From assembly GCA_015059105.1 (NCBI GenBank), contig SVBB01000005.1, positions 1 through 64,000 of the forward strand: a stretch of DNA of 64,000 bases, in the 5' to 3' direction. Shown here one piece after another: positions 9,652 to 32,223 of the stretch. Under the pieces are notes generated by a model, which was given only the letters and a program-made list of their open reading frames with translations, did no database searches and was not told the origin of the DNA. Source of the DNA: Erysipelotrichaceae bacterium. GTDB lineage: Bacteria; Bacillota_I; Bacilli_A; RFN20; CAG-826. Each line of letters opens with the position of its first letter. Within the stretch, counting starts at the first letter, position 1. The translations under genes and the position numbers were made by a program.

Positions 9652-9652
9652 T

Positions 9653-9670
9653 TTATAAAATGATAGACAT
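9653..9670 (-). CDS. Five-codon leader cistron coupled to the GGDEF gene
   Basis: ATG TCT ATC ATT TTA TAA encodes MSIIL. It has a GAGGTG ribosome site, and its stop is one base from the GGDEF ATG, which itself lacks a ribosome site. This is the pattern of termination-reinitiation coupling. Whether the peptide matters is unknown. Confidence 0.35.
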   Translation of the reverse strand: MSIIL

Positions 9671-9757
9671 TTATCACCTCTTTTGCAACCTTTTATCTAT
9701 AAAAAATATTTCTTATTAAAAAGAAATATAATGGAATTTACAAAAAGAAAGAAATTG

Positions 9758-10879
9758 TTAACGAGGATTTTTTCTGCGTTCTAAAGTGCTATTGCGGTAG
9801 TAATTATCTTTATCGATATACATCTGTTCATCTGCTATTTTTGACATCTCTTCAAGGTCCATCGTCTTATTTTCATCGAAAGAAATACCGATAGAAACCG
9901 CGTATTTTGTCTCTTTTGTTTTCGTTTTGATATCGTCTCTCATTTTCTCTAAATCTGTTAATTTTCCGTTAATTAATAAGACAGTAAACTCATCGCCACC
10001 TAAACGATAAACATAGGAATTCCTAACCGCGCAAGCTTCAATTATTTGTGATATTTTTAATATCGCTTTATCCCCAGCATCATGGCCTTCTGTATCATTG
10101 ATAAATTTAAGACCATTCATATCTATATTGAGAACACCATTGATGTTCTTACCGAGTTTTTTGCAGTCATAATAGAATGTTTTACGGTCAAAACAACCAG
10201 TTAAAGCATCTTTTCTCGTCTGCTGCACATATAGATACAAATAATAGAACAAACACGATATAGCGATTGTTAAATTGAGCAAATTAGTCGCTAAATTAAA
10301 TGTTTCTAAAATTACTGCAGAGATAACGAAAAATCCCGCGACAAATAATACGATTGAATCTGTTTTTCTTTTCCCGTTTAATTTTCTGACGACGTTAACA
10401 AAGAAATAACTAACATACATCATGCCAACAACATGCGCAGTAAAATTCATGTACCCACGGTTATAAACTAGTTCAGTACCACCTTCGTTAAGCGTGTAAT
10501 AGAAAGCAAATTTATTAAGTGGGTCAACATTAACAAATAAGGAAAAAGAATAAACGATAAGATTGAAAATTAATGGGATATAAAATATCCATTGGTATTT
10601 AACTTTTTTACCGACAAGTTGAATGAAAAAATACACGAGCAAAGGGCGAACCACATAACCAAAAAAGGAAAACAGAGTTGTTAAGAAAATATTTAAAGTA
10701 ACTGTCTTATTATATCTTTCTAAAAAACCAAATATGGATAAGATAAGAGATCCAGCGATAATTAAAATCGCATAATGGTTTTCCCGTGAATAACCACGCA
10801 TGTTATAAATGACAATGAAAATCATCGTAATTGCGATGCATAGCAAAGCAAAATTAGAGGTAATAAATTCTAAAAACAT
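9758..10879 (-). CDS. Polytopic membrane diguanylate cyclase
   Basis: 373 residues. Seven or so hydrophobic helices fill residues 1-215 (7TM/histidine-kinase-N-like sensor layout). A GGDEF domain follows (about 220-365) with intact DMNGLKFINDTEGHDAGDKA and YRLGGDEF, so active c-di-GMP synthesis is expected. No RxxD product-inhibition site is visible just before the loop. The membrane part is probably a ligand sensor. It follows the 1014-residue protein after 58 bases. Confidence 0.88.
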   Translation of the reverse strand: MFLEFITSNFALLCIAITMIFIVIYNMRGYSRENHYAILIIAGSLILSIFGFLERYNKTVTLNIFLTTLFSFFGYVVRPLLVYFFIQLVGKKVKYQWIFYIPLIFNLIVYSFSLFVNVDPLNKFAFYYTLNEGGTELVYNRGYMNFTAHVVGMMYVSYFFVNVVRKLNGKRKTDSIVLFVAGFFVISAVILETFNLATNLLNLTIAISCLFYYLYLYVQQTRKDALTGCFDRKTFYYDCKKLGKNINGVLNIDMNGLKFINDTEGHDAGDKAILKISQIIEACAVRNSYVYRLGGDEFTVLLINGKLTDLEKMRDDIKTKTKETKYAVSIGISFDENKTMDLEEMSKIADEQMYIDKDNYYRNSTLERRKNPR

Positions 10880-10937
10880 CTCTATTATTTTAGTACATAA
10901 AATAAAGAATGTAATACGTTTTATTAATAAGGAAAAA

Positions 10938-13900
10938 CTAAGAGTTTTTTCTTAATTCTTCAATAAACTTCACTTTATCAAGTGGACGATAGAAGTGATA
11001 ACCTTGGACATATGTATTCTTGCTGATGTCCTTGATGAGGATGAATTGGTCTGCGTTTTCAACACCGACGAGAGAAGCTTTAATGCCCGCTGCTTCCGCT
11101 TCTTTAACTAACGCGGTCACTTCTTGTAAGTGCTGTGGATTGACTTCGATATCACCAACGATCTTTCTATCGATCTTAATCTCTGTAAAGCCTAATGCTT
11201 TTAATGTATCAATAGAAACATATTTACCGGTATATTGGTCAACTGAGAGGACGATATGTTCATTTAAGATTGTCTTCGTCATACCTTTGAATTCTTCCAT
11301 GTGGTTATAGATTTCTCTTTCCGTAATTTCAAAGCCTAAGAAGTCTCTTGGTAAATGATAATTGACAAGAAGATTATGAATCTCTTCATGGAATGATAAA
11401 TCCGCGAAATATGAATAGTCAGTGTTGATTGTAAGTCTTGTAAAGCCATACACTTTAAAAACTGTTAAACCAAACTGTTCATAAAGTTCACCGATATATT
11501 TAATCAAAGCATTAGAAATGAGAGAAATCTTACCGTTCTGCGCGGCAGTTTTAATTAATTCATCCGCGGAGAAGACCATGTTTCGATAGTTATCAGAAAG
11601 ACGTAAGAATATTTCAGCGCCATAAATGGATTTATCCACTGTTCTGACCATTGGTTGAAGAGCGACAGAGAATGTCTTATTACCAAACTGTTCATCGATA
11701 ACCGCAAGCATAAATTTATTTCTCGAGGCGCTTCTGGAGTAATCGCCATCTGGGAAGTAAAGGATATCTTTATTGATCTCGTAATTACGTTGATTGTAAT
11801 GACGAACGACGTATTTGAGGAAGTCTTCCGCGATTGGATATGACTGCGGGAAGGAATATGGAAGATAAGTGATATTGAAGTTATAAGCTTCTTCATCGAC
11901 TTTATAATCTTTTTTACTCGCTTCATAAATGTGTTCAACTAGGTTGACGACATCGATTTGGCCGCTTTCAGGTAAGAGAATTGCAATCGATTGATTATCG
12001 AAAGCATAGATATCTTCTTTTTCTTTATTAATCGCTTTAATCGCTTGAATGAACTGTCTCATTAAGAAGAGATATTTCTCAGAACCGACTTTATCTAATA
12101 AATCTTGATGGTTATCAATTCTTAACACTAAAACATATCCTCTCGCGTTGATGTTATATAATCCGCGTAAAGATAAGGCGAGAGACGTGAAAGAAGAGAT
12201 GAGTAATTCTTTATCAAATCTATCATAGACCGAGCTTTCATCAGTGATGATTTGAAGTAGGAGTCTCTTCAAAGTTGAATTTCTTTCGTTGATCGATAAA
12301 GAAGCGACATATTTAGTTCCATTAATTTCCCCATATTTCTTTTTAGAAGTAAGAAGCGGACAATTTGGACATGGTTTGTCTCTTCCTTCAATGACTTTGT
12401 AACATTTTTCACCGACTTTCGCGTTTTTAAATAACGATTCAAAGTTTCCGGAATAAGAGACGATATCATATGTTTCTTCATCAATACGATATAAAGTTGA
12501 GTTATTGCTAGAAAGCATCGCATTGATTTCGTTATATGTGTTATTGAAATGATCTTCTCTTCTCATCATTAAAAGGAAGTCACCGATTCTATGGAAAGCG
12601 AGGAAGATACCTTCTCTTAAATAAGAATTAATCGGCATTTCTCTATTTTGGTTGAAGAAATAAATCGCCGCATATGGGTAACCCTTATCACGTGAGACGA
12701 AATAATAGCCAGAGAATAAATTCATCTTATCAATAGATTCAGCGAGGCCAACGTTGCAGTGACTACGCGCGGAGAAATAATATGAGCAATCTTTATCGAC
12801 CGCTTGGTCAAGTGCTTCGATTAAATCGCGTGGGACTTCATCTCCTTCTTTAAAGATACGGCTTTCACCTTTCCCTAAAGAGAGAAGAGAATAATACCGA
12901 TGATTATCATCGTTTTGAATAAAGATACCTGCGTAATCGATATCGAGATAATTGCTAAGCGCGGACATCGCTTTTTTCACCGTTGATAAGGATTTATTTC
13001 TATCGCTTGAAGAGATTCTTAAATCGGATAGATATTCCAAAATGCGAGAAACGTTATTTAAATTCATCGAATTTTGCATAACTCCAGAATCACCAAGCGT
13101 GGATAAGCGGTTTGGAAGATATAAGTTAATGATTTCCCCTTGTCTTTTCGCATATCTTAAATCCGCGAATAAATCAGGAATATCGCTATAAGGATAACAA
13201 ACTAAAGAGAATCTCGCATTGATTGTAGAAATACCATCATAAGTCTTTTTAGAAACGCTTAAGCGCTTCATATAATTCGCGGCTAATTCGTGAATATGTG
13301 AGAAAGAATCGATATGAGGAAGGAAGATGTAATAACCACTATTATTTTCGTTTAAAGCAAAACGACGATATGGGAAATCACTAAAAACGTCCTTTAGTGA
13401 GGTTAATATTTGTTCTTTTTCTTCTTCATCTAAACTATCATTATCAAAATCATAGAATAATTCACATAAAGCGTTACGATAGTTTTGTGAACTATAGATG
13501 AGAGGTGATAGATACTTCTTTAAGGAAGCTAACGTTACAAGCTCCTCATCGTTATTGAGGTGTTCAAGTGGAATATTCGAATCATCATAAGTATGGGAAA
13601 TCAATATTCCATTTTCAAACTCTGCTTTAATGACATCGATTTTTTCATTTAATTCATTAATTTCTTTGATATTGGTTTCTGGATAAAGCGGTAAATCTTT
13701 TTCATTATTTTTGATTTTCTCCATCAAAACGGCAGTATTTTTATATAATCCATCGATATAATACTTTTTTAAACGTTTCACGATAATAAAGCAAAAGAAA
13801 GCATATATCGCTAAAACGAGGAAGACAAATCCGGCAAGGATATATAGGAAAACTGGATTACCTAAATTGATATATAAAAGTGATAAAGCAACCGTTCCAA

Positions 13901-13982
13901 GTAAAAGAACGAGAAGGATACCTCCTGGAAGGAAGATAGAAGCGAGGAATGAACGAGAAATCGTGTAAGTTCGTTTTTTCAT
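10938..13982 (-). CDS. Degenerate GGDEF/EAL membrane protein with Cys-containing PAS-like domain
   Basis: 1014 residues: two N-terminal helices (about 12-70), a coiled region, a GAF/PAS-like middle with the cysteine cluster GRDKPCPNCPL (around 555), a non-canonical GGDEF-like segment without the GGDEF loop, and a C-terminal EAL-like domain (about 755-1010). In the last, the EAL motif reads GAEIFLRL and DDFG is replaced by VDQYTG, while QGYHFYRPL is kept. Catalysis is unlikely; a c-di-GMP receptor or scaffold role is more plausible. It is three bases from the nucleosidase-like gene. Confidence 0.8.
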   Translation of the reverse strand: MKKRTYTISRSFLASIFLPGGILLVLLLGTVALSLLYINLGNPVFLYILAGFVFLVLAIYAFFCFIIVKRLKKYYIDGLYKNTAVLMEKIKNNEKDLPLYPETNIKEINELNEKIDVIKAEFENGILISHTYDDSNIPLEHLNNDEELVTLASLKKYLSPLIYSSQNYRNALCELFYDFDNDSLDEEEKEQILTSLKDVFSDFPYRRFALNENNSGYYIFLPHIDSFSHIHELAANYMKRLSVSKKTYDGISTINARFSLVCYPYSDIPDLFADLRYAKRQGEIINLYLPNRLSTLGDSGVMQNSMNLNNVSRILEYLSDLRISSSDRNKSLSTVKKAMSALSNYLDIDYAGIFIQNDDNHRYYSLLSLGKGESRIFKEGDEVPRDLIEALDQAVDKDCSYYFSARSHCNVGLAESIDKMNLFSGYYFVSRDKGYPYAAIYFFNQNREMPINSYLREGIFLAFHRIGDFLLMMRREDHFNNTYNEINAMLSSNNSTLYRIDEETYDIVSYSGNFESLFKNAKVGEKCYKVIEGRDKPCPNCPLLTSKKKYGEINGTKYVASLSINERNSTLKRLLLQIITDESSVYDRFDKELLISSFTSLALSLRGLYNINARGYVLVLRIDNHQDLLDKVGSEKYLFLMRQFIQAIKAINKEKEDIYAFDNQSIAILLPESGQIDVVNLVEHIYEASKKDYKVDEEAYNFNITYLPYSFPQSYPIAEDFLKYVVRHYNQRNYEINKDILYFPDGDYSRSASRNKFMLAVIDEQFGNKTFSVALQPMVRTVDKSIYGAEIFLRLSDNYRNMVFSADELIKTAAQNGKISLISNALIKYIGELYEQFGLTVFKVYGFTRLTINTDYSYFADLSFHEEIHNLLVNYHLPRDFLGFEITEREIYNHMEEFKGMTKTILNEHIVLSVDQYTGKYVSIDTLKALGFTEIKIDRKIVGDIEVNPQHLQEVTALVKEAEAAGIKASLVGVENADQFILIKDISKNTYVQGYHFYRPLDKVKFIEELRKNS

Positions 13983-13984
13983 AA

Positions 13985-14722
13985 TTAATCCTCCCTGATG
14001 ACGTCGTTACGACCGATATCACCGATACAGGTGACAACCGATTTACCGACATCGCTATAATGTTTTAAAACTTTTATATATGCTTCAGTGGTGTCTTTTT
14101 CATCGATTTTTCTTTCGACAACTTTCACCGCGATAACCGGCACTTTATGAAGATGACCCGCAATAGCCACTCCACCAGAAGTACAGTCACAGACGACATT
14201 ATGGTTATGACCTAAAACATAGCCACCCATTTCAATGTTCTTGATTCTTTCGTGAGTATCTAAAACCACATTGGAAGAAACAACTGAACATAATTCATTT
14301 TTTACAAAGCTTCTTTTCTCAATAGAAGCTGTTAAATATTTGATAACTTCTGGGTCGGATTCAAAAGAATGTGGAAATTTTGGAATTTGGCCGAGTCTAA
14401 CATTAGCCTCTTTAACTTGGTTGACATCCCCGATTAAAATACGTCTGCTAATAACGATATCACCTGTTTCTAAATTAGGTGAAAAGGCGACGCATTTACC
14501 AACTACAAAGGCAAGAATAACAAAGTATTTCTCAATGATATAAGAAGTTACTAATGAAGATTCATAACAAGTAAAGATATCCCAAACAAGGACTACTTCC
14601 TGATTGAATATCGTTCCAATAAGCGCTTTATACTTATCAAAAATTATGTCTTCTTTCTTATTGACCATGACACTTTCGAAATAGAGAATGTCATCATGAG
14701 TGGAACCTAAAATCATGATCAT
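13985..14722 (-). CDS. Divergent nucleoside phosphorylase/MTA-SAH nucleosidase-like protein
   Basis: 245 residues. FVVGKCVAFSPNLETGDIVI matches the central strand and glycine-rich segment of PNP_UDP_1 enzymes. CTSGGVAIAGHLHKVPVIAVKVV aligns with the MEGAAIAQVA...VP segment of MtnN/Pfs, but the catalytic Met-Glu and the later Ser-Asp are not preserved. It is therefore probably a non-catalytic nucleoside-binding homologue. Sited between the EAL phosphodiesterase and the degenerate EAL protein with gaps of two bases, it may sense a nucleotide or c-di-GMP breakdown product; that role is inference. Confidence 0.5.
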   Translation of the reverse strand: MIMILGSTHDDILYFESVMVNKKEDIIFDKYKALIGTIFNQEVVLVWDIFTCYESSLVTSYIIEKYFVILAFVVGKCVAFSPNLETGDIVISRRILIGDVNQVKEANVRLGQIPKFPHSFESDPEVIKYLTASIEKRSFVKNELCSVVSSNVVLDTHERIKNIEMGGYVLGHNHNVVCDCTSGGVAIAGHLHKVPVIAVKVVERKIDEKDTTEAYIKVLKHYSDVGKSVVTCIGDIGRNDVIRED

Positions 14723-14724
14723 AA

Positions 14725-16254
14725 TTATCTATCCTCCCCTCTTTCAAAAGGATTTGATAACAAGAATTTTTCATAATCCTTGACCGGCAAAGCCTCTGAA
14801 TAATAGAATCCTTGGATTGTATCGCATTTGAATCGTCTTAAAATATCGACTTGTTCTTTGTTATCAACACCTTCAGCGATGACTTCAAGGTCGCTTGCTT
14901 TACAGAGTTCGATTAAGAACTTGACGATATCGCGGCTCTTCATATCAGTGACGATATCATCGATATATGATTTATCGATTTTAACCGCGTCAAAAGGCAT
15001 CTTTCTTAAGTTACCGATATTAGAAAAACCAATACCAAAGTCATCCATCAAGACACGAACACCTCTATCTCTAAGTTTCTTAATGATGGAAATAGAGATG
15101 AATGTATTCGCTTGGCTAGTTGCTTCAGTGATTTCAATTTCAATATATGATGGGTTGATTTGATATTTATCTAAGATATTGATGATGGAGTTAAGGAAGT
15201 CGTTTGAATAGAATTCATATAATGAGAAATTGATAGAAACGGGAATAATTCTTCTTCCTTTTCTTTTCGCTTCATTTAAATCCTGACAAACTCTTTCAAA
15301 AACATAAGTATCGATTTCATGAATTAAACCTGCTGCTTCAGCAATAGGGATGAATTTAGCAGGAGTTAAGATACCATTTTTTGGTGAATGCCATCTCACA
15401 AGAGCTTCTGAGGAGACGAAACGTCGTACAGAAAGAGAGAATTTCGGCTGATAATAAACGACGAATTCGTTGTTTTTTAAACCCTGGGTAATCTCTTCCA
15501 CATCGCTTCTTGAAGAATGATGACGGAAGGATTCATGGTAATAAGTCATCGTTTCAAAGTTTCTTTCAGAAACGTTTCTAGCGACCATCGCATTTTCAAT
15601 ATCTTCGACTAAACGGGAATCACTAGTCATTTCACAGATGCCGAAGAATGGTTGCACCCAAATACGAATTTGGCTCTCTTGAGCGATTCTCAGTAAATTT
15701 GTAGAAATCGTATCCACTAATTCTCTGATTTGCCTTTCTTCATAATCACGACAGTAGAGAATAAAAATACCACGCGTAAAGCAATATGCGACATTTTTCT
15801 TTTTCTTTTTATCAAAGAATTTGTCTAGAAATTCCGCGATCGTTAAATTATAAGCGTTAACCGATTCATCACGATTGACGTTTTCGGTAACGGCTTTATT
15901 CGCGGCAGAGAAAGCGATGATGAACTGCTTTACCTTTTTGCTTCTAAAAGCTTTAATCGCCACCACTCTCGCACGGAATGCGTTTAAGTCGAAGAATGTC
16001 GTTGCTTCCCCAAAACTATAAAGGTTTTCGCTGATAAGAGAATGAGTTGAAGATAATACGGAAATGTATTTCGCCGTGAAAAGCGCGCCACATACCGCAC
16101 TAGCTGGTAGAACGCCCAAACAAATATAGAATAAGAACGCTAATTCTCCTTCATGGGTTAAGAAACGCAGTAAGATAATTCCTAGAAATGAAATGAAGAA
16201 TAAAGCGATACAAATAATCGATAATATCAAATATACTCTTTGTCTACTTTTCAT
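14725..16254 (-). CDS. EAL-domain c-di-GMP phosphodiesterase, membrane-bound
   Basis: 509 residues: two transmembrane helices (about 7-65), a degenerate GGDEF-like segment (about 90-230), then EAL (about 245-500). Catalytic elements look intact: SSEALVRW, PVSINFS, EIEITEAT, LMDDFGIGFSN, AVKIDKSYI, VIAEGVDN and QGFYYSEAL. It should hydrolyse c-di-GMP to pGpG. Lying in an operon switched on by c-di-GMP, it could provide negative feedback. It starts one base after the signal peptidase gene. Confidence 0.9.
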   Translation of the reverse strand: MKSRQRVYLILSIICIALFFISFLGIILLRFLTHEGELAFLFYICLGVLPASAVCGALFTAKYISVLSSTHSLISENLYSFGEATTFFDLNAFRARVVAIKAFRSKKVKQFIIAFSAANKAVTENVNRDESVNAYNLTIAEFLDKFFDKKKKKNVAYCFTRGIFILYCRDYEERQIRELVDTISTNLLRIAQESQIRIWVQPFFGICEMTSDSRLVEDIENAMVARNVSERNFETMTYYHESFRHHSSRSDVEEITQGLKNNEFVVYYQPKFSLSVRRFVSSEALVRWHSPKNGILTPAKFIPIAEAAGLIHEIDTYVFERVCQDLNEAKRKGRRIIPVSINFSLYEFYSNDFLNSIINILDKYQINPSYIEIEITEATSQANTFISISIIKKLRDRGVRVLMDDFGIGFSNIGNLRKMPFDAVKIDKSYIDDIVTDMKSRDIVKFLIELCKASDLEVIAEGVDNKEQVDILRRFKCDTIQGFYYSEALPVKDYEKFLLSNPFERGEDR

Positions 16255-16255
16255 A

Positions 16256-17143
16256 TCATTTTTCTCCTTTCTTATTAAGCATTTCTTCTAATAATTCTTT
16301 TTTCAGTCTCTCGCGATCTTTATCCGATAATTCGTCGAGTGATGATGGGGTATTACCTCCATCTCCACCGCCGCCTTCATCTTCTTCATCGTTATCTTTC
16401 ATCGCAGAGAAGATATCAAGAACAGATGTAATGACCAAATAGAAGGCCGGAACAAGGAGGAAGACTAATAATCCCCAAGGAGAAGATATAAAGCGGTAAA
16501 AACCCCCTAAAACCTTACTATTTGCCTGTACAATACCTAAATATTGTTTTTCGGTAAAGGCTTGATATTGACCAGCTTGCGCTTGGTGTTCACTGGTGTT
16601 GATACCAGCGACGATAAATGTATATCTACCGTCACCAACAGTTTTTGATTCATCAACTTGAATTTCTCTAAGTCTATGAGTCATTACTACTCCGGTTGGG
16701 TTAGTTTGATCATTGAGTTCTGGATGGTTAAGTGGTTTGACATAAGTTTGGTAAACATCCATAAATGTCATATCGATTTTAATAGTAGAATCAGTTAATG
16801 ATTTTTGATATCTATCATAAACGGATTCTAATGAATCGCGATGGGTGATAATCGCTGAATTAGTCATATAATCCGGTTCCATAGAATCAGTCAAGATGAC
16901 AAAGCTACCAAAACCAAAGGAAATGGTTTGCCCATAGTTTTCATTTTTATGAATCATCCCGTCGATTTGACCAGCGGCAAAAACGGCAAAAAAGGCAAAG
17001 AAAATACCGGTCAACACCCAGCCGATGATCTTTCTCACCTTGCTCTTAGGTTTTTTGACCTTTTCTTCTTTAGTAGGTTCCACGACTTCTGGATTCACTA
17101 CTTCGGGAGTTTCATCTAAGTTTTTCTTACTTTCTTCGTCCAT
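16256..17143 (-). CDS. SipW-type signal peptidase I
   Basis: 295 residues. After an acidic/Pro-rich cytoplasmic tail come TM1 (about 37-60) and the catalytic serine in LTDSMEP (Ser87). The general base appears to be the histidine of VVMTHRLRE (His156), giving the Ser-His dyad of the ER/SipW group rather than Ser-Lys. TM2 is about 228-252. The C-terminus ends with a charged helix LSDKDRERLKKELLEEML that recurs in the small membrane protein at 24.7 kb. It is the obvious processing enzyme for the exported proteins of this locus. TAATG overlap with the preceding gene. Confidence 0.88.
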   Translation of the reverse strand: MDEESKKNLDETPEVVNPEVVEPTKEEKVKKPKSKVRKIIGWVLTGIFFAFFAVFAAGQIDGMIHKNENYGQTISFGFGSFVILTDSMEPDYMTNSAIITHRDSLESVYDRYQKSLTDSTIKIDMTFMDVYQTYVKPLNHPELNDQTNPTGVVMTHRLREIQVDESKTVGDGRYTFIVAGINTSEHQAQAGQYQAFTEKQYLGIVQANSKVLGGFYRFISSPWGLLVFLLVPAFYLVITSVLDIFSAMKDNDEEDEGGGGDGGNTPSSLDELSDKDRERLKKELLEEMLNKKGEK

Positions 17144-24376: not shown

Positions 24377-24439
24377 AATAATATGTTGCTCTCATCAAAA
24401 TACGCTTTTGAATCGAGCTATTGTGTCCCATGGGATTAA

Positions 24440-24562
24440 TAAAAGCCAGTGCCTATCATCCAATACATTGGCGGATTATTCATCCCTAAGGCAGCTGGCT
24501 ATCTTAGTTATTATAAGACCCTTTAGTTTTGCGACCCCATATCACTATGAGTGTGCTTTTAG
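24440..24562 (-). promoter_or_regulatory. c-di-GMP-I (GEMM-I) riboswitch with overlapping terminator
   Basis: On the minus strand: GCACAC, a P2 hairpin, GGTCGCAAAAC, then AAAGGGTC...AAGATAGCCAGCTGCC, matching the GEMM-I conserved skeleton (GCA-, -ACGCAAAGC-, -GATAGCCAG-TGCC). The same 3' strand (AGCCAGCTGCCT, 24488-24500) pairs with AGGCACTGGCT (24443-24454) to form a terminator followed by TTTTATT. Ligand binding would hold the 3' strand in the aptamer and prevent termination, so this is an ON switch. It controls the 16-kb operon. Confidence 0.93.
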
Positions 24563-24571
24563 CTCGGCCTT

Positions 24572-24600
24572 AATTTAACGCATATATCGCGTGTTGTCAA
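24572..24600 (-). promoter_or_regulatory. Promoter of the 16-kb c-di-GMP operon
   Basis: TTGACA, 17-base spacer, TAAATT. The spacer carries CGCATATATCGCGTGT (24579-24594, read on the plus strand), close to the motif in the promoter at 27.3 kb. The start point falls just before the aptamer. Confidence 0.8.
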
Positions 24601-24664
24601 GAGTCTTTCGAAAATTATTTTTTAAAATAAAAAACCAAAAAATGAGAATTGCTTATTAATAATA

Positions 24665-24685
24665 AAAAAAAGTGGGGTTACCACT
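24665..24685 (-). terminator. Terminator of the small membrane protein gene
   Basis: AGTGG-GGTTA-CCACT-type stem (minus strand AAGTGGTAACCCCACTT) followed by a run of T, overlapping the stop codon of the 115-residue gene. Confidence 0.75.
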
Positions 24686-25032
24686 TATTCATCTTTGTTT
24701 AGGTCTTTGAGAAGTTCTTTCTTAAGGGCTTCTTTTTGTTCATCAGAGAGATCGCTGACTTGCACAGGTTCTTTCTTTGTGCTCTTACGAACGTAGATGA
24801 CAAGTCCAATCACGTTAGCAGCAAGAAGAACGAACAATGGAACGACGAAGGCTACTCCGTAAACCCATGGTTGGAGATTCACTAACCAGCCAACAAAACC
24901 AGTCATCGCTTGTCTTTCCACATCACTCTTACCAGCATTCGCGAGCATGATGATACTTAAAACGAATAAAAAGATAGTGACAGCAACATCAACTGATATT
25001 CCGCAGATAAATAGCACTTTCTTCTTATTCAT
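24685..25032 (-). CDS. Small two-helix membrane protein sharing a C-terminal motif with the signal peptidase
   Basis: 115 residues from the ATG at 25032; a TTG three codons earlier is less likely. Helices at about 5-30 and 50-80, short basic loop, then the tail SDLSDEQKEALKKELLKDL. A near-identical tail (LSDKDRERLKKELLEEML) ends the SipW-type peptidase of the same locus. It sits between the two divergent fibre operons as a monocistron with its own terminator. Possibly an accessory or anchoring factor for the peptidase; inference only. Confidence 0.65.
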   Translation of the reverse strand: MNKKKVLFICGISVDVAVTIFLFVLSIIMLANAGKSDVERQAMTGFVGWLVNLQPWVYGVAFVVPLFVLLAANVIGLVIYVRKSTKKEPVQVSDLSDEQKEALKKELLKDLNKDE

Positions 25033-25304
25033 GGTCAGCAAAAGCTTTCTACGATTATATATGTTATACCACTACTTCAATTTTTCAAAACATTTTTTTA
25101 TCTTATATTATAAGGATTTTTTATTTTTAACATACATTTACGCATTTGCATTTGTATCATTTATATACTTTTGTCCATATAACCTAAATATTAAATATCT
25201 TCTTTTTAAATAAAAACATATAAAAATCTAATATTCCTTATGTGTTGAAAGTAACGATCAACCAAGAAAAAAATAACAAACAAGCTTTGCTTAATAAAAA
25301 ATAT
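25033..25304. other. AT-rich gap between divergent units
   Basis: Very AT-rich DNA with no supported gene. It holds the probable promoter of the small membrane protein gene (TATAAT on the minus strand near 25055-25060). Nothing else recognised. Confidence 0.5.
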
Positions 25305-25334
25305 TTGACGAAATATGGTTTTTGCTTCTACAAT
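25305..25334 (+). promoter_or_regulatory. Promoter of the 318-residue fibre-like gene
   Basis: TTGACG, 18-base spacer, TACAAT. Expected start about 25341, leaving a leader of roughly 120 bases. Confidence 0.75.
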
Positions 25335-25335
25335 G

Positions 25336-25438
25336 ATTATGCTGAACGAAAGCGATTAGGACGTCCCATCCTTATTGGCGACATGCGAGGCAAATTATAG
25401 CTATCATCCATTCAATTAAAACAAGTTGAATGATTTTT
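25336..25438 (+). promoter_or_regulatory. Structured leader with terminator, unidentified class
   Basis: The leader can fold with ATGAT...GCT pairing AGC...ATCAT as closing stem and a GGACGTCC palindrome within. It ends in CATTCAA (25409-25415)/TTGAATG (25426-25432) followed by TTTTT, a terminator just before the ribosome site. This is the layout of a riboswitch or attenuator. It lacks the conserved bases of c-di-GMP-I and does not match my recollection of c-di-GMP-II or other common classes. Confidence 0.5.
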
Positions 25439-25461
25439 GTCGTTTAATATAAGGAGAAATT

Positions 25462-26418
25462 ATGAAAAACAAAAAATCTAAAATCATAGTTCCTGCGCTC
25501 GGATTAATCTTATTATCAACTGCTGCTAGTATTTCCGGATCTGTGGCATGGTTCACTGCTAACAGAACTGCAACAATCAACACTGGTGCATTCGGTGTTG
25601 TCAAAACAGATGGTACTTTAGCTGTAGAAGTCACCAATGGAGTTGGCACTGTTGTGACCAACACTACCGTCAGTCGAGTTACGGATGCTAAAATTGCCGA
25701 TGTTTCTTTTAACCCAAAAACACATCAGTTGTACACTGATAAAGGTAATGGTGATGTAAGTGGTTATCGCGAAATCGGTGGTACTACTTCGTTTAGTACT
25801 GCCCCAACAGGAGGCACTGGAACAGGGGCGCACGCTTACAAAATCGATGATAAAACATACTATGCGTTCACATGGAGTGTCACCCTCACATACACATGGG
25901 GGCCAGACAAGACACCATTAAACGTTTTCTTTGATTATAAGAATTCTAGCATGTCAACAACTTCTGCAGCAGAAACTGACTCTGGTTTGAGAATAGCAAT
26001 GGCTGCTACTAAAACTGTTGTATTCGCCGGAATGCAAGCAACTGCAGGTAACTTAAAGGGTGTATATGGCACTGCTGCAAATAATTTTGAAGAATACGGC
26101 ACTACAAACATTACGGGCGGAGTCTTTGGTGGCTATTTTGCTCAATCTGTTTACGGAGATAGCAATACTGCGTCTAGTAACGCAACAGCCACTAAAACAA
26201 CATACTCACAAGCGTTAGATGGAGATACTCAATCTGTCCAAATCGCCAGACCAGATTTCTTAGGCACCATCGAACAAGAAGGTGAAGAAACTAATAGTGA
26301 TATTGTCATTAACTGTATCGCCTGGTATGAAGGAACTGACCCAAACGTTGTTAATAACAAATCTTTAGGTGAAGTTAGTTCTACACTCGCATTCTACGCC
26401 ACAACACAAGGCGAATAA
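25462..26418 (+). CDS. SipW-type exported fibre-like protein 5
   Basis: 318 residues. Signal segment about 8-30 ends in AASISGSVAWFTANRTATIN, the clearest match to TasA/camelysin-type precursors in the window. The mature part is Thr/Ala/Gly/Asn-rich, acidic and free of cysteine except one. The C-terminus has IAWYEGTDPNVVNN followed by a strand, the same signature as the minus-strand paralogues. AAGGAG ribosome site. Monocistronic behind its own structured leader, and likely a major fibre subunit (inference). Confidence 0.78.
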   Translation: MKNKKSKIIVPALGLILLSTAASISGSVAWFTANRTATINTGAFGVVKTDGTLAVEVTNGVGTVVTNTTVSRVTDAKIADVSFNPKTHQLYTDKGNGDVSGYREIGGTTSFSTAPTGGTGTGAHAYKIDDKTYYAFTWSVTLTYTWGPDKTPLNVFFDYKNSSMSTTSAAETDSGLRIAMAATKTVVFAGMQATAGNLKGVYGTAANNFEEYGTTNITGGVFGGYFAQSVYGDSNTASSNATATKTTYSQALDGDTQSVQIARPDFLGTIEQEGEETNSDIVINCIAWYEGTDPNVVNNKSLGEVSSTLAFYATTQGE

Positions 26419-26439
26419 GCGATAACTCAATCAAAAAAT

Positions 26440-26868
26440 GGCGCCCCAAAGTTTAAGGGGGCACAAGAAGAAAAGTCCCAAAGTTAAGGGGGGTTTCAAA
26501 GGAAAATTGCCTGGAAATCGTTGGTTTCTGGGCTTTTTATATCTCCCGTTTATAAACACAAACATGTTCAATTTCGGCAGCTAAAAAGTACTTGTGATTG
26601 TGCGATCCATTTGGCAACACCTGATTGATAAATAAATGCCTTATAATTTATATATCCTTTAGGATAATGTTTATAATTTTTTTGTGGAATAACAAGAAAA
26701 AAGTGTTATTGAAATAACTTTATTTCTCTTTCTTTTCTTCCCAGCGGGAAAAGAAAGCCGACAAAGAAAAGAAGGCATCCATTTGAACTGCCCCCTTTAA
26801 CTTTGGGACTTGATTTCTAGGCCCCCTTAAACTTTGGAGGGATATCCATGCCCCCTTTAACTTTGGTT
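26440..26868. mobile_element. IS21-like remnant bounded by repeated termini
   Basis: The left side has two copies of CCAAAGTT(T)AAGGGGG (about 26445-26461 and 26477-26493). The right side has three inverted copies of CCCCCTT(T)AA(A)CTTTGG (about 26791-26807, 26821-26838, 26850-26866). Multiple short terminal repeats facing inwards are typical of IS21-type elements. The interior of about 300 bases has no intact transposase. It separates the 318-residue gene from what looks like its original terminator. Confidence 0.6.
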
Positions 26869-26872
26869 TACT

Positions 26873-26906
26873 CAAAAAAACCACTTCAATTCGAGGTGGT
26901 TTTTGT
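26873..26906 (+). terminator. Terminator, probably of the 318-residue gene before the insertion
   Basis: AAACCAC-TTCAATTCGA-GGTGGTTTTT, a strong stem followed by T residues. Immediately after it, GCGC-GTCAATT-GCGC-TTTTTT (26908-26928) forms a second terminator-like hairpin. Confidence 0.75.
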
Positions 26907-27049
26907 TGCGCGTCAATTGCGCTTTTTTGCGCTTTTGCCTTTTAGTTGATATTTATATCAAGTGCTTGAATAAAAAAGTGCAACTTTGTACAAAGCAGCA
27001 ATAATAATATTATTAAACCTATTTCTCTAACATTTGCCATAAAAAATGT

Positions 27050-27239
27050 TTACATTTTCTATAATAAATGTAAGTATAAAAGTAGCTACAGGTCAGGGTA
27101 ATGCCTCCTGCAAGACGTTGCGATAAACAATGACGCTCAGTCTTCAATCGGATTACCGATCTAAAACTAGTGGTAGAGTGAAAGTTAAGCGAATTGGCGC
27201 AGTTATTGGATCTCAATTTATCCCCTCGCAAGGGTTTTT
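27050..27239 (-). ncRNA. Structured repeat RNA candidate, copy 1
   Basis: Minus-strand order: P1 CCCT-TGCG-AGGG, GATAAATTGAGATCCAATA, a GCG...CGC hairpin, AACTTTCACTCTACCACTAG, hairpin ATCGG-TAAT-CCGAT, a conserved stretch, then CAGG...CCTG enclosing GGCATTACCCTGA, and a tail hairpin TTACATTT...AAAATGTAA. About 150 bases are nearly identical to the two copies near 44 kb, while the outer stems differ in sequence but keep pairing. Short ORFs across it are not real genes. Confidence 0.65.
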
Positions 27240-27295
27240 ATTTTAGCAAAATATAATAATATTATTATAAAACTCAAATCTTATCGGTAAAACTC

Positions 27296-27325
27296 TTGAC
27301 AACTTTTCGCATACGCGTGTATATT
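27296..27325 (+). promoter_or_regulatory. Promoter of the second c-di-GMP transcript
   Basis: TTGACA, 18-base spacer, TATATT with a TG extension. The spacer contains CGCATACGCGTGT (27308-27320), related to the motif in the minus-strand operon promoter. Confidence 0.8.
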
Positions 27326-27332
27326 ATAGATG

Positions 27333-27430
27333 TAAAAAGCAAAACTACAGTGATGTAGTGACGCAAAGCTAGAGGGTCTTGATAATGAAGATAGCCAGTT
27401 GCCGAAAGAAAGGTAACTGGATTTTTATTA
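27333..27430 (+). promoter_or_regulatory. c-di-GMP-I (GEMM-I) riboswitch with overlapping terminator
   Basis: AAAAAGCAAAAC, P2 hairpin CTACAGTGATGTAG, TGACGCAAAGC, AGAGGGTC, then GAAGATAGCCAGTTGCC: all GEMM-I landmarks in order. CCAGTTGCC (27395-27403) then pairs with GGTAACTGG (27412-27420) around GAAAGAAA and is followed by ATTTTTATT, a terminator that uses the aptamer 3' strand. Binding should therefore prevent termination (ON switch) for the 268- and 1325-residue surface proteins. Confidence 0.95.
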
Positions 27431-27437
27431 TAAGACT

Positions 27438-28244
27438 ATGAGAAAAGTTAGAAATAATAAAAACTTAAAGATCATCGCATCCATCAGTGTTGTTCTTTTC
27501 TCTTTAGTCGCTACTTTCTCTGGTGCAATCGCTTGGTTCCAAGCCATGAGAAACACAAACAACACTACTGACTCTTTTAAAATTACTCCACGTGCTGGGT
27601 TACTCAGAACATTATCTATTCATGAACTTGTTGAAAATGACGCATTTATATATAACCAAACGGGAGACATCGTCGGATATAATTTCAACCCAATAGCTGC
27701 TAGTGATATCACGATCAACTGGGGTGAAGCAGTTACTCCTCAATACAATGTAGACACCCCATCATTAGGCCAATACTCGTTGCTTCAAAAAACAAATCCT
27801 CTGCTTCTCGTCTTTGAACTCAATAACAGCATTGCTTCTAGCAGCGTAACAATCACCGCTACAGCAAGTGAAACATATAACGCTGAGCAATACGATACTG
27901 AAGCATCGGGAGATGGCAATCCATTATCGTGGGTTGTGAAATATTCATCAAAAGCATTCTCTAAACAACAACTCGCTGATAGCGATTATATCATCACTAC
28001 TGAATCCCTTTCTAACGAGGGACATTTTGCTACTATAGACAATAGCGGAACTCTTTCTGAATTCAATAAAACTCAAACCTTTTATCACGGAAACAACAGC
28101 ACAGAAATCAATTACGTTTTTGTCGTCTTAGATTACTACGAAGCAGCTATGGAATTCTTCTATTTCGCCAACCTGGGCAAAGATTTTATCAGTGACGCGA
28201 CAAAAGATGTTCCTTTTAACATCGACTGGACCATGGAGATATAA
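27438..28244 (+). CDS. SipW-like exported protein 6
   Basis: 268 residues. Signal segment about 9-32 ends in ATFSGAIAWFQAMRNTNNTT. The mature domain has the Ser/Thr/Asn-rich composition of the other subunits. In place of the W-x-EG-x-D motif it has VVLDYYEAAMEFFYF, and it ends in a strand FNIDWTMEI. The start follows the riboswitch terminator by 12 bases and lacks a clear ribosome site. The next gene begins one base after its stop; the two are probably assembled or anchored together. Confidence 0.7.
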   Translation: MRKVRNNKNLKIIASISVVLFSLVATFSGAIAWFQAMRNTNNTTDSFKITPRAGLLRTLSIHELVENDAFIYNQTGDIVGYNFNPIAASDITINWGEAVTPQYNVDTPSLGQYSLLQKTNPLLLVFELNNSIASSSVTITATASETYNAEQYDTEASGDGNPLSWVVKYSSKAFSKQQLADSDYIITTESLSNEGHFATIDNSGTLSEFNKTQTFYHGNNSTEINYVFVVLDYYEAAMEFFYFANLGKDFISDATKDVPFNIDWTMEI

Positions 28245-28245
28245 T

Positions 28246-31200
28246 ATGGCAAAGAAGTTATTCGGTACCATTGCTATCTCCTCTATGATTGCTATGTCTG
28301 CAGTTGCAGCTATTTCTGCTTCTGTTGCATGGTTTCAAAGAAACGCTAGTCTAGATGAAAGAACAAAAATACAAGGCTGGTCCCAAGGCGCGTACTTTGC
28401 TGGTGGACACGGTGTTGATGGCGATCCATATATCATCAATAAACCAGTTCACCTATACAATTTAGCGTGGCTACAATACATCGGCTACTTCAACGATGGC
28501 CAAAACGCAGATGGCACTGGTGCTATTGCAGCTAATAAACAAACATATTTTAAACTTGAAGCTGATATAGATATGAGCTCATTCGGTTCCGCCCTTCCCC
28601 CAATCGGTACTTCTAAATACCCATTTGTCGGTAACTTTGATGGCAACGGCAAAACCATATCTAACTGTGTAACCACTAATGATTTCAGCGAAACAACTAA
28701 ACACCCATCAATCGTTAAAAGTATTACTGACGCTAATTGTGTTGGACTTTTTGGTGTTGTAGGAAAACAGTCCGGCCAATCTTTTACATATACTAGCAGC
28801 ATTAACGAAATTAAAAACCTCGGCATTCTAGGAGCGACCGTTAAAAGTTCAACATCTACCACTTTAGCGGGTATCGCTGCTGGATATGTTAACGGAACTC
28901 TTGATAATGTTGCAGTTAACCAATCTAATCTATATACATTACAAAGTGCTAGCCCTATCACTTCTATTACAAATAATGTATCTGATTATTCTTTAGTTGG
29001 ATACACCACTAACGAGTACAAAAGAAAAATTAGACTAAGAAGCGATGATGCAAATATTCCAACCGTAGAAAACCCTAATACTGCACAAGGCGGTGATAAA
29101 TGGGGTGGATCCATCAACATGCTCGATATGTTCAATTATTTACGAGCTCAAAGCAATTCTCTTCCGGCATATGAGTTCCCGACAGAAGAAAACGTTTATA
29201 TAGACGTAGATGGAACCGAAACAAGACAAGTTCTCGATACCGATGTCGCATATGACTATAATACTAGTTTTGGAGAATACATTCGTTATGAAGGTGGAAA
29301 AGTCATAGAAGACGGAAAAGAATATGCGTCATTCTCTTTCGCAAGGTCGTCAGGTAATAGTAGTTTTTCATCATATAACAACTCAGATAATCAATTTATT
29401 TGCTTGTATGGTGGTTCCACTAAAAGAGCGACAAAAGCTAGTTATGGTTATTGGGATGGATATTCGGCTAATTATCAAACTAAATCTGTTACCACTTATA
29501 CTGATACAACAATTGACAACTACGTTATCACTGATGGATTAGCAAATTACTTAAGAATAAATGGCGGCACTATTTCGAATTCAACAACACTTCAAACAGG
29601 ATGTTATTTTACTTTAGATAATAATGGGTATTTATATACATCTACCGGCACTACCTATTATCTTTACAAAAACGGCGAAAATTTGGCAGCAGCCACCACG
29701 AGACAAAACAATGATGATTACAAATGGGTTTACGATGAAGATAACAGCTATTTAAAAGTCAGTGGTGGTAATTATTATTTAAGATATACGGGAACAAGGT
29801 GGGAAATCGTGAGCAAAACACAGACCCAGAATGTAGATCACTTTTCTCTAAAGACCGGTAACTATTATTTGAATGCCAATGGCACTAATTTAGAACTTAG
29901 CAGCGGAGATAACACTAATTGGTATGTTTTAGACAATAATGTATATACTATCATAGGTGGCACCCGTTACTATATTTGTTATTCTGGCGACAACATTCTG
30001 CTATCGAATAATGGTAGTAAATTCACATTTTCTTCGGGCAAATTCTATTATACCTATTGGTCATACTATAACAGGTATTATCGTTCTATTGTGGTAAATA
30101 ACGCGACTTTAACGCTTGCAGCCCAAAATAGTAGTACCAATAATGCGACTGTTTTTACCCAAACCTATCATACAGAACCTTTATATTTGACTGCTGAAGC
30201 ATATTACACTAATAAATCTACTTCAGTCAGTGGCCCGACAAACGAGAATTCATACTATAATACACTCCCAACTTATTTCCCATTAACTAGAGAAAAAAAT
30301 GAAAAAGGAGAATTCACTGGTTCAAGCAAACCTGACATTAAAAACACTGGTTATGTCGTCTCTGGATCTTATTTGACACACGAAAGCCAAGGACCATATG
30401 GTGATATACGTGTGTCGAGATTTGCAATGAGTGACATTAGCGTTGCCTTAAGTGGCTCAAGTTCATATTCTTCTAGTAAACTAGAGGTGGTTACAAGAAC
30501 TTGTGTCCCAAATGATAGCGGCCAATATAGTGATTCTGGATGGACTCGTATTTCTGATGAAGATAATAAGAATAATACTGCATCCAGCAGTCTTTCAAAA
30601 GCCTATCCTAACAAATTGAACTATAAGACAGGGCTAAGGCTTGGTAAATATAAAAATTCGAGAACTCAACTTGGCAACACACTAAGTAATGGGGGAGGAA
30701 ATATTTACGGACTTCACTTTATGGACGCATCTATTTCAACAAGCAAAGTAATCGAAGCCAAAAACGTGACTGTTCTAGATGGAAAGACTTTTGATGGAGA
30801 TGACCCAATTGGCACATATTATCCAACTTATGAGCTTCCCGAAGACTCAATCGATTTTAATCTCAAAAACCAAGGTTTTATCAATTTCTTCGCAGGAACA
30901 TATTTCTCCAATGGTAGCGGTTCAAATAGAATTGTAAACGACACCTTCTTTTCCCTTCACACAATCACTAGAAACCAAGACAACACAATAGCTGATATCC
31001 AGGAGATTAAAAAGATTTACGCCCCTGCATCTGGAGAGCCAAGTGATGAAAACCCATATATTTATTCTTTTGACGGAAATAAGCCTACAGGCTCCGGAGA
31101 TTTAGTTTTTGACACAGAATGGATTACTAATCCAAATAAAGATATAAAGATTGTAGAAGATGCGGTCTATTACTTTGAAGTCCCGGTTAACGCTGGGGAA

Positions 31201-32223
31201 TTTGCCTTAGGTTCTGTTTCTACCAGAAACGGTGCTTATTTGATGTATCTAGATATCGGTGCTGGTATTGATAACTATAAAGATATTGTTACCACCGAAT
31301 CTATATCCACTGCTGTCAATTATACTGATTATCCATTAGGAATTGATTTCTTGTCATTTACTGCTGGTACGGCAAGAAGCGCTATTATTAAAGGCGGCGA
31401 TTCGGCTTGTATTAAAGTTGGAACTAATAGCGTTGCTGGTCAAACCATTGCTTTCATTTATAGTGATTCTACATTAACCGTCTCAACAGCAAGTGATACT
31501 CTTCCTGCTGCTGTACAGTATGAATCTCTTAGCACGAGTGTTAAAAAGAAAATTGGAGAAGCTGGCGCTACAGACCTCACTTTCTCTCCACCATCGCTAT
31601 TTACTTCAGTAGAGGAAAAAGTAACTCTTGAAAGCTTTAACGTCTTTACTTCTCAAGTGACTAGATCTGTAACCCAAACAATAACGTATTCAGGAGGAGC
31701 AACAGGCGAAATAGTTAAGCTTCCAACACCAGTGACGACTACCGGATTCACAATCACTGAAGCCGCAACTTATAGCGTTGAACAGGGTAACCCAGCGACA
31801 ATAGATAACACCAAAAAAGAATTAACTTGGACTGGTAGTGGCACTGTGAAACTAACAATGACCTATGCTGAAACTATGAATAACGTTGAAGAATGGGCAA
31901 CAGCAACCACCGCCTCTTCGGACAATACTGAAGGAACAATCTTCGAATATCACTTACGTGATTACGACGATCCAAACTTAACTGTCTATTACTATTACGA
32001 TGTGGCAAGCAAAACATATACTTTGTATATCAATGCGGCTAATGACACAGAACTATATATTGATAGCCTACCACCAGCTCCTAGAGCAGAGACACAACAG
32101 TTGCCAGCGATACCTCTTTACACAGTTGAAATCGTTGTTAATGGTGATACCGCTCATAAGACAGTTCTCACTTCAGCTTCAACCTCTATCACTTCTATTC
32201 CAATTACTGGAACAGGAGCATAA
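28246..32223 (+). CDS. Large GLUG-type surface protein with SipW-like signal (1325 aa)
   Basis: I start it at the ATG directly after the upstream stop (GGAG eight bases before), not at an ATG inside the upstream gene. The signal segment ends in AAISASVAWFQRNASLD. Residues about 45-130 contain GDPYIINKPVHLYNLAWLQYI and a buried-strand repeat, and about 160-230 the GLUG-like GILGATVK...TLAGIAAGYVNGTLDNV, as in bacterial adhesins. The middle is a long Tyr/Ser/Asn-rich beta region; the end is Thr-rich without a sortase motif. Likely the tip adhesin or surface layer of the fibre system (inference). Confidence 0.75.
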   Translation: MAKKLFGTIAISSMIAMSAVAAISASVAWFQRNASLDERTKIQGWSQGAYFAGGHGVDGDPYIINKPVHLYNLAWLQYIGYFNDGQNADGTGAIAANKQTYFKLEADIDMSSFGSALPPIGTSKYPFVGNFDGNGKTISNCVTTNDFSETTKHPSIVKSITDANCVGLFGVVGKQSGQSFTYTSSINEIKNLGILGATVKSSTSTTLAGIAAGYVNGTLDNVAVNQSNLYTLQSASPITSITNNVSDYSLVGYTTNEYKRKIRLRSDDANIPTVENPNTAQGGDKWGGSINMLDMFNYLRAQSNSLPAYEFPTEENVYIDVDGTETRQVLDTDVAYDYNTSFGEYIRYEGGKVIEDGKEYASFSFARSSGNSSFSSYNNSDNQFICLYGGSTKRATKASYGYWDGYSANYQTKSVTTYTDTTIDNYVITDGLANYLRINGGTISNSTTLQTGCYFTLDNNGYLYTSTGTTYYLYKNGENLAAATTRQNNDDYKWVYDEDNSYLKVSGGNYYLRYTGTRWEIVSKTQTQNVDHFSLKTGNYYLNANGTNLELSSGDNTNWYVLDNNVYTIIGGTRYYICYSGDNILLSNNGSKFTFSSGKFYYTYWSYYNRYYRSIVVNNATLTLAAQNSSTNNATVFTQTYHTEPLYLTAEAYYTNKSTSVSGPTNENSYYNTLPTYFPLTREKNEKGEFTGSSKPDIKNTGYVVSGSYLTHESQGPYGDIRVSRFAMSDISVALSGSSSYSSSKLEVVTRTCVPNDSGQYSDSGWTRISDEDNKNNTASSSLSKAYPNKLNYKTGLRLGKYKNSRTQLGNTLSNGGGNIYGLHFMDASISTSKVIEAKNVTVLDGKTFDGDDPIGTYYPTYELPEDSIDFNLKNQGFINFFAGTYFSNGSGSNRIVNDTFFSLHTITRNQDNTIADIQEIKKIYAPASGEPSDENPYIYSFDGNKPTGSGDLVFDTEWITNPNKDIKIVEDAVYYFEVPVNAGEFALGSVSTRNGAYLMYLDIGAGIDNYKDIVTTESISTAVNYTDYPLGIDFLSFTAGTARSAIIKGGDSACIKVGTNSVAGQTIAFIYSDSTLTVSTASDTLPAAVQYESLSTSVKKKIGEAGATDLTFSPPSLFTSVEEKVTLESFNVFTSQVTRSVTQTITYSGGATGEIVKLPTPVTTTGFTITEAATYSVEQGNPATIDNTKKELTWTGSGTVKLTMTYAETMNNVEEWATATTASSDNTEGTIFEYHLRDYDDPNLTVYYYYDVASKTYTLYINAANDTELYIDSLPPAPRAETQQLPAIPLYTVEIVVNGDTAHKTVLTSASTSITSIPITGTGA

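Follow-up and report, generated by a model that had tools for sequence, protein, structure and literature searches.

Two divergent c-di-GMP-I-class riboswitches, probably ON switches, and a third leader complementary to one of them at a TasA/SipW-like locus of an Erysipelotrichaceae bacterium

The 64-kb stretch of DNA analyzed here (the window: positions 1 to 64,000 of contig SVBB01000005.1, assembly GCA_015059105.1, from an uncultured Erysipelotrichaceae bacterium of the rumen) carries two genuine riboswitches of the cyclic diguanylate (c-di-GMP)-I class, which point away from each other and precede the two halves of a locus encoding TasA/SipW-like secreted proteins. Coordinates are positions within the window, and the left (minus-strand) and right (plus-strand) switches are designated L and R, respectively. 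Each lies directly behind a promoter and has an intrinsic terminator that overlaps its aptamer; the terminator helix and a second helix of the left leader, here called the latch, both co-vary among relatives, and the gene context of the switches is conserved. We consider it quite probable that both elements are transcriptional ON switches that drive the two halves of the locus, with the latch forming in the left leader after read-through. The aptamers and the ON mechanism are of already known kinds; what looks new in the left system is the latch and a partner leader for the riboswitch, belonging to a gene between the two switches, and the complementarity of that leader to the left one suggests that the three leaders of the locus communicate as RNA. 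An earlier note on this DNA, made from its sequence alone, had proposed the two ON switches and missed the latch, the third leader, and the complementarity of the latter to the left leader.

Aptamers and promoters

When the window was compared with all of Rfam by cmscan, only two matches reached the gathering score, both to c-di-GMP-I (RF01051; gathering score 35 bits) and both spanning model positions 1-87, with the scores given in Table 1. This covariance search, which the earlier note had named as a check, bears out its identification of both leaders. A lineage-specific covariance model built from 29 related aptamers gave 83.7 bits for R and 72.8 bits for L, the next-best match in the window scoring 12 bits. 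The switches are divergent, as had been noted, with 2.76 kb between the aptamers, and the segment then singled out ends at 27430, a few nucleotides before the R start codon (27438). The conserved skeleton, described in the same note as complete, is matched over the full model, with the reservation that both aptamers have an A at model position 11 (the equivalent of G20 in Vc2, which reads the second guanine) and that L shows two more departures, correlated with each other, in lower P2, where GCACA...GTCGC replaces GCAAA...GACGC. This A-to-C and A-to-U pair of changes is not present in the sister species. L is the weaker match of the two, and the c-di-GMP-I-GGC model gives it 50.0 bits, under that family's cut-off of 59. 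Both aptamers have what we take to be the equivalents of A47 (the intercalating A) and C92 (the Watson-Crick C) of Vc2, at residues 38 and 75 of the right one and at the positions aligned with these in the left one.

A sigma-70-type promoter ends within a few bases of the start of each aptamer, which leaves near-zero space for a classical P1. A long-range P1, which in the window would join the 5' end of the left aptamer to sequence downstream of GGGACA through 7 bp, was considered and rejected, as it is not conserved (own versus swapped strands, p 0.72).

Aptamers of the c-di-GMP-I class were found in 19 of 58 relatives and in none of 14 control genomes. The genome to which the window belongs (1.50 Mb in 26 contigs) has one further such aptamer outside the window, before a GGDEF gene (G000:C24:46626-46703, minus strand; locus L002/L056). 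The best terminator of this third switch does not use the aptamer strand; its sign may differ from that of L and R, with possible feedback on cyclase synthesis.

Terminators and the predicted response

In both leaders the terminator consumes the 3' strand of the aptamer, as the earlier note had claimed (arms in Table 1). In R, CCAGTTGCC and GGTAACTGG pair around an 8-nt loop and are followed by ATTTTTATT, and in L, AGCCAG.TGCC and GGCA.TGGCT pair around a branched loop and are followed by TTTTATT (folding z-scores -7.4 and -2.7, respectively). The ligand-reading C, equivalent to C92 of Vc2, sits inside the terminator 5' arm in both cases. Of 82 related leaders, 68 have a terminator whose 5' arm is the aptamer 3' strand, under a loose criterion that shuffled downstream sequence also satisfies in 30% of cases. 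When arms were swapped between genomes, own duplexes averaged -12.5 kcal/mol and foreign duplexes -10.4 kcal/mol, with 63 of 75 own duplexes better than the swapped mean (p 1e-10); examples of co-varying arms are AGCCAGCTACC with GGTAGCT and AGCCAGTTATC with GATAATTGGCT. Because the terminator arms co-vary across these 75 related leaders, the ON switch is supported as the best reading of both leaders; the strand overlap and documented ON precedents (below) likewise favor the interpretation put forward in the earlier note.

Under the ON reading, each transcript would have its start at the aptamer boundary. When no ligand is bound, AGCCAGYTGCC, i.e., the aptamer 3' strand with the ligand-pairing C, would join the downstream arm in an intrinsic terminator; with ligand bound, the same strand would be held in P3 and the binding pocket, and RNA polymerase would continue into the fiber genes. 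A high level of cyclic dinucleotide would thus turn ON both halves of the TasA/SipW-like surface-fiber locus, and the EAL and GGDEF enzymes encoded in the left gene run suggest feedback. The sign and size of the response to ligand are predictions from the leader sequences.

Several observations weigh against this explanation. The overlapping-arm model fails for about one sixth of the related leaders, among them that of the third switch of this genome; the lower-P2 changes of the L aptamer are unusual; both aptamers have A at position 20, as do the GEMM-Ib riboswitches selective for 3',3'-cyclic GMP-AMP (cGAMP); and in ViennaRNA the terminator state is favored over the latch state by 4 kcal/mol in the absence of ligand. 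In addition, the architecture does not guarantee function, because Bc1, a related long-platform switch, binds c-di-GMP and yet shows no response in cells (PMC11218506). The Bc1 precedent of a binding-competent leader that may fail to respond, along with the two conserved positions at which L is off consensus, would also suit a reading of L or R as an OFF switch or as a decayed aptamer that does not switch. We regard this as very unlikely, since no antiterminator that would free a terminator upon ligand binding was seen, and since the overlap between aptamer strand and terminator arm is both conserved and co-varying.

The right leader (27376-27437, plus strand) has a further potential pairing, between its P3 strand and the sequence from the U-tract up to the start codon, with which the terminator would reach ~26 bp. 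This extended pairing is conserved only in a subset of relatives (n=50, p 0.004), for which reason we do not claim it as a general feature; it could possibly add translational control. Among relatives, three left leaders (L074 4211-4480, L075 4243-4510 and L093 4346-4620) combine one aptamer 5' half with two successive 3' strands, each of which has its own terminator; the later of these strands could take the place of the earlier one.

The latch of the left leader

Left-type leaders have a strand, A, that follows the aptamer immediately and is the complement of the U-tract region, A2'. Own strands paired better than foreign ones in 24 leaders (-10.1 versus -6.2 kcal/mol, p 1.6e-4), in 15 leaders of the type found in the window (-12.1 versus -5.7) and in 39 genomes with 36 distinct strands (-11.15 versus -5.68; 39 of 39 better; 0 of 5000 permutations). 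The order of the strands in the RNA is T, A, T', A2', so that the latch crosses the terminator helix, and with loops of 3-4 nt it is unlikely that the two helices form at full length together. Since polymerase must pass the U-tract before A2' is complete, the latch can exist only in read-through RNA and cannot decide termination. After read-through, A2' would displace the local hairpin that A forms inside the terminator loop, and pairing of the strand behind the aptamer with the U-tract region would keep the terminator from re-forming. Our best guess is that the latch locks the read-through state in this manner. It may instead be that neither the latch nor the complementarity between leaders described below has a role in switching, and that the latch only serves, once read-through has occurred, to make the mRNA leader compact or stable; its completion only once polymerase has passed the U-tract, which rules out a direct decision on termination, fits such a passive role. 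The strong co-variation shows selection on the helix, however, and we hold a passive role to be rather unlikely. We found no published description of a platform element of this sort, i.e., a co-varying helix that draws on the U-tract region and forms only after read-through.

A third leader complementary to the left switch

The secreted protein S318, encoded between the two switches, has a leader of its own (the S leader), which is conserved in sequence and shape and which has no Rfam match at the gathering score or at E<=5 (25337-25455). It consists, in order, of a long 5' hairpin with the apical loop GTCCCA (25363-25368), the linker CTATCATCCA (25401-25410), a terminator and a Shine-Dalgarno sequence. 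The arms of the loop hairpin co-vary (own -6.9 versus foreign -3.5, p 4e-4), as does the stem of the terminator hairpin (25409-25432), which is followed by a U-tract. Two conserved motifs of the left leader, m1 and m2, match these single-stranded sites. The linker sequence CUAUCAUCCA is the exact complement of UGGAUGAUAG, a conserved left-leader sequence located after the loop hairpins and before T', and GUCCCA complements (U/A)UGGGAC, which is conserved immediately behind A2'; m1 and m2 stand in the order antiparallel to the S leader sites that a duplex requires.

The S leader model matches 44 of 224 genomes of the family and the left-leader motif pair 39, and both occur together in 34 versus ~8 expected if they were independent, an overlap that is our own count from two tables, that includes or lacks a few matches that are doubtful or lost to fragmentation, and that shared ancestry inflates. 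Weak R2 matches in G003, G035 and G047 (24-26 bits) were left out, and G003, the one inspected, is without both motifs. The left leaders of the other type (in G004, G015, G020, G021 and G030), in which latch-like pairing varies, have neither motif, and these genomes have no S leader. The complementarity is kept whether the L and S genes are in tandem or divergent. Variation at the motifs is sparse but telling. Base pairs are exchanged at both motifs in genus g17 (G017 and G155; m1 G-C to A-U, m2 A-U to U-A) and at m1 in G077 (U-A to A-U); one-sided m1 changes in G026, G166, G200 and G108 retain G-U pairs, G158 and G130 each lose one m1 end pair, and G001 and G029 break one pair of m2. With 39 pairs compared, own partners scored -18.5 versus -17.9 for foreign ones at m1 (permutation p 0.007) and -11.9 versus -11.7 at m2 (permutation p 0.01), the latter amounting to weak co-variation. 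In co-folding, the read-through L RNA of the window is predicted to bind S through m2, and the terminated form is not. Duplex energy over whole leaders was discarded as support, as it does not exceed that of shuffled S (-48.2 versus a mean of -43.7, sd 5.0), and only the specific motifs count. A conserved upstream open reading frame from ATGGGACA was likewise dropped, its start being TTG or TAG in relatives though GGGACA is kept.

A tentative proposal, to which we give somewhat less than an even chance, is that the left riboswitch, acting in trans, passes the second-messenger signal on to the S318 leader. At high ligand, the latch-held left read-through leader would expose UGGAUGAUAG and AUGGGAC/UUGGGAC, which would dock first on the apical loop GUCCCA of S and then on its linker CUAUCAUCCA, and the outcome would be anti-termination of S318, a gene with no aptamer. 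Alternatively, S could be the small RNA and the left mRNA its target; action of the left read-through RNA on S is favored because m1 pairing takes in the lowest base pairs of the S terminator stem, where it adjoins the U-tract, and in the left leader meets the terminator stem only at the loop. The main rival to pairing between the leaders is that one transcription factor recognizes m1 and m2, which the leaders share in opposite orientation, as DNA sites. Parallel changes in the two leaders, as seen in G017/G155 and G077, would also be expected of an inverted protein site, and only the pairs compared here speak to this point. The rival is weakened by the RNA-structural context, in which one motif lies in the apical loop of a co-varying hairpin and the other in a single-stranded linker beside a terminator stem, by the variable spacing between the motifs, and by tolerance of G-U: one-sided changes in the 9-nt core of m1 mostly retain such pairs (G026, G166, G200, G108, G017 and G155), with exceptions in G158, G130 and, at one position, G077. 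On balance we think a protein site unlikely. If the pairing between leaders is real, it would provide a compact route for passing the decision of one riboswitch to a gene that lacks an aptamer.

The ligand

The best-known natural switches with A at position 20 are the cGAMP-selective ones of GEMM-Ib, and the pilM riboswitch of Geobacter metallireducens presumably shares this hallmark with the L and R aptamers. Among 39 aptamers of the lineage, position 20 is A in 22 and G in 17, and it alternates between the two in orthologous leaders of related genera. Of the nine GGDEF domains in the genome, eight have readable motifs, seven being GHxxGD and one GHxxGN; none has the Ser signature of Hypr-type cyclases (PMC6456294). 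No cGAMP synthase, whether a Hypr GGDEF among these eight or a SMODS/CD-NTase, was found in this assembly, which is 92% complete. With no cGAMP synthase seen in the genome and EAL phosphodiesterases encoded in the left operon, c-di-GMP is the likelier ligand, and cGAMP a less probable candidate. That the switches sense cGAMP or both dinucleotides, and are ON switches of a cGAMP pathway, would explain the A at position 20 in L and R and in the 22 related aptamers, as G20A is a known cGAMP-enabling change, and the experimentally studied cGAMP switches, e.g., pilM, are indeed ON (PMC9262584). The A/G alternation, the missing synthases and the EAL enzymes all speak against it; moreover, position 20 has been described as a selectivity factor and not a hard filter, and cGAMP switches are able to bind c-di-GMP by means of a protonated A (PMC9262584, citing Keller 2018 and others). 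We judge a cGAMP pathway to be decidedly improbable, and the A at position 20, being a matter of selectivity, lowers our confidence in the ligand and not in the fold.

Comparison with known systems

The closest precedents for the ON mechanism are Bc3-5 of Bacillus thuringiensis, three tandem copies of c-di-GMP-I switches before the cspABCED operon that are ON by experiment and in which the terminator takes the ligand-contacting C and part of P3, thereby excluding ligand (PMC4759541). Here, there are instead two divergent single switches on a TasA/SipW-like locus, and the latch and partner leader have no counterpart in what we consulted of the Bc3-5 account (PMC4759541). The pilM riboswitch is also ON, with mutually exclusive aptamer and terminator and a surface-filament operon under its control (PMC9262584); the points of difference here are the EAL enzymes of the same gene run and the failure to find a Hypr cyclase. 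Bc1 resembles the left leader in its long platform, which follows the aptamer and can form more than one alternative helix, but it has two terminators 28 bp apart where the left leader has one terminator and a co-varying latch from the U-tract region (PMC11218506). For a riboswitch leader that base-pairs with the 5' untranslated region of another gene there is a precedent in SreA, an S-adenosylmethionine riboswitch of Listeria that acts in trans on prfA (PMC8079631). SreA works as a terminated short RNA, whereas one of the two motifs described here is present only in read-through RNA, and the partner here is an attenuator-like leader within the same locus.

If the switches act as proposed, ON-riboswitch control of TasA/SipW-type fibers would extend cyclic dinucleotide signaling to small-genome, uncultured rumen Bacilli, in which riboswitches may be the main known readers of these messengers; no PilZ domain was found in this genome.

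The locus and its relatives

The genes of the locus are listed in Table 1 with the elements described above. The model of L1 (predicted local distance difference test score, pLDDT, 89.8) has as its top match the TasA fiber 8aur (Z 6.5, 143 residues, root-mean-square deviation 3.5) among other beta-sandwiches, at 13% sequence identity to TasA; the AlphaFold2 model of R268 is poor (pLDDT 52). The match of the putative signal peptidase to NF046067 (E 1.7e-6, 27.8 bits) and that of a relative (E 4.4e-20, 72.1 bits) both fall below the curated cut-off of 190. The TasA-like fold of L1 is only suggestive, but together with the SipW-like enzyme it points toward filament proteins as products of the locus; a filament function, like the transcription of the whole left gene run as one unit, is putative. 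The Bacillus TasA-SipW locus resembles the present one in its SipW-like signal peptidase and secreted proteins, one of them here of predicted TasA-like fold, and differs from it in that the present locus has many more secreted proteins, an McrB-like AAA ATPase with P524, EAL and GGDEF genes, and predicted cyclic dinucleotide riboswitch control.

Table 1. Features of the locus, in window coordinates
Feature	Position	Strand	Remarks
Right c-di-GMP-I aptamer	27328..27406	+	62.7 bits, E 6.9e-10; A at Vc2 position 20
Left c-di-GMP-I aptamer	24487..24567	-	50.5 bits, E 6.5e-7; A at Vc2 position 20; correlated A15C/A34U
Right promoter TTGACA-18-TATATT	27296..27325	+	11/12 consensus matches
Left promoter TTGACA-17-TAAATT	24572..24600	-	10/12 consensus matches
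Right intrinsic terminator	27395..27426	+	5' arm 27395-27403 (aptamer 3' strand); 3' arm 27412-27420; then U-tract
Strand T, AGCCAGCTGCC	24490..24500	-	aptamer 3' strand and left terminator 5' arm
Strand T'	24444..24453	-	left terminator 3' arm
Latch strand A, GGGATGAATAA	24476..24486	-	also 5' half of local hairpin inside terminator loop
U-tract and latch strand A2', TTATTAATCCC	24432..24443	-	U-tract 24440-24443
Motif m1 of left leader, TGGATGATAG	24453..24462	-	complements third leader 25401-25410
Motif m2 of left leader, ATGGGAC	24425..24431	-	complements third-leader apical loop
Third leader (S RNA), before S318	25337..25455	+	promoter 25305-25334
S318	25462..26418	+	secreted, SVAWF N-terminus; behind S leader, between switches
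M118	24685..25041	-	small membrane protein conserved in locus, between switches
R268	27438..28244	+	first right-operon gene; secreted, TasA/SipW-type N-terminus (GAIAWF)
R1343	28192..32223	+	large secreted protein of right operon; homologues behind right-type switch in other genera
L1	23531..24376	-	first left-operon gene; predicted helix and beta-sandwich, nearest solved fold TasA
L2, L3, L4	20255..23544	-	three more secreted proteins, (S/A)xAW(Y/W/F)-type N-termini
McrB-like AAA ATPase and P524	17143..20252	-	N-terminal membrane segment in ATPase; P524 a conserved partner
SipW-like signal peptidase	16256..17143	-	NCBIfam NF046067
EAL, phosphorylase-like, EAL, GGDEF, GGDEF genes	8284..16254	-	end of left gene run

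The nearest named relative is the rumen "Erysipelotrichaceae" metagenome-assembled genome SIG220, with 57% identity for L1 and 86% for the AAA protein; the others are mostly rumen or gut Bacilli, with Acholeplasmatales, Izemoplasmatales and Ruminococcus as more distant ones. The same gene sets stand behind switches in many genera, either in tandem or divergently. In G015, G020 and G021 the same two operons are in tandem, each with its own switch, 6-7 kb apart, in the order right-type switch, S318-like and M118-like genes, then left-type switch, which agrees with the view of the earlier note that the switches serve two halves of one locus. Because these relatives carry both modules in tandem, the two-switch design appears to be ancestral or recurrent, the divergent layout being one arrangement of it. 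In distant relatives (Acholeplasmatales and others; L100, L101, L103, L116, L128 and L141), c-di-GMP-I aptamers occur as close tandem pairs near the same gene family. The McrB-like AAA and P524 genes are kept with these surface genes from Bacilli to Ruminococcus, and PADLOC matches them to a candidate model only. Just behind the right operon lie genes for a HipA-like kinase and a helix-turn-helix partner (32586-34087, plus strand), followed by a GGDEF gene (34235-35119).

Other repeated elements

Two repeated elements lie between S318 and the right switch. One, of ~440 bp (26440-26880), has no long reading frame, CCAAAGTTTAAGGGGGC repeats at its ends and several genomic copies of up to 94-97% identity, and it looks like a non-autonomous transposon inserted there. 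The other, of ~150 bp (27075-27255, plus strand), has further copies in the window at 43788-43940 and 43997-44145 (minus strand) and elsewhere in the genome at G000:C9 82-231, 283-437 and 551-621 (minus strand), i.e., six matches in all. Its transcript was rejected as a conserved structured leader, since it is a genus-specific multi-copy element with no unusual fold (z 0.17); it has no Rfam match and was found elsewhere only in the sister species. The copies, two or three in tandem and with ends that resemble promoters and terminators, are 86-95% identical where full and may possibly form a small RNA array.

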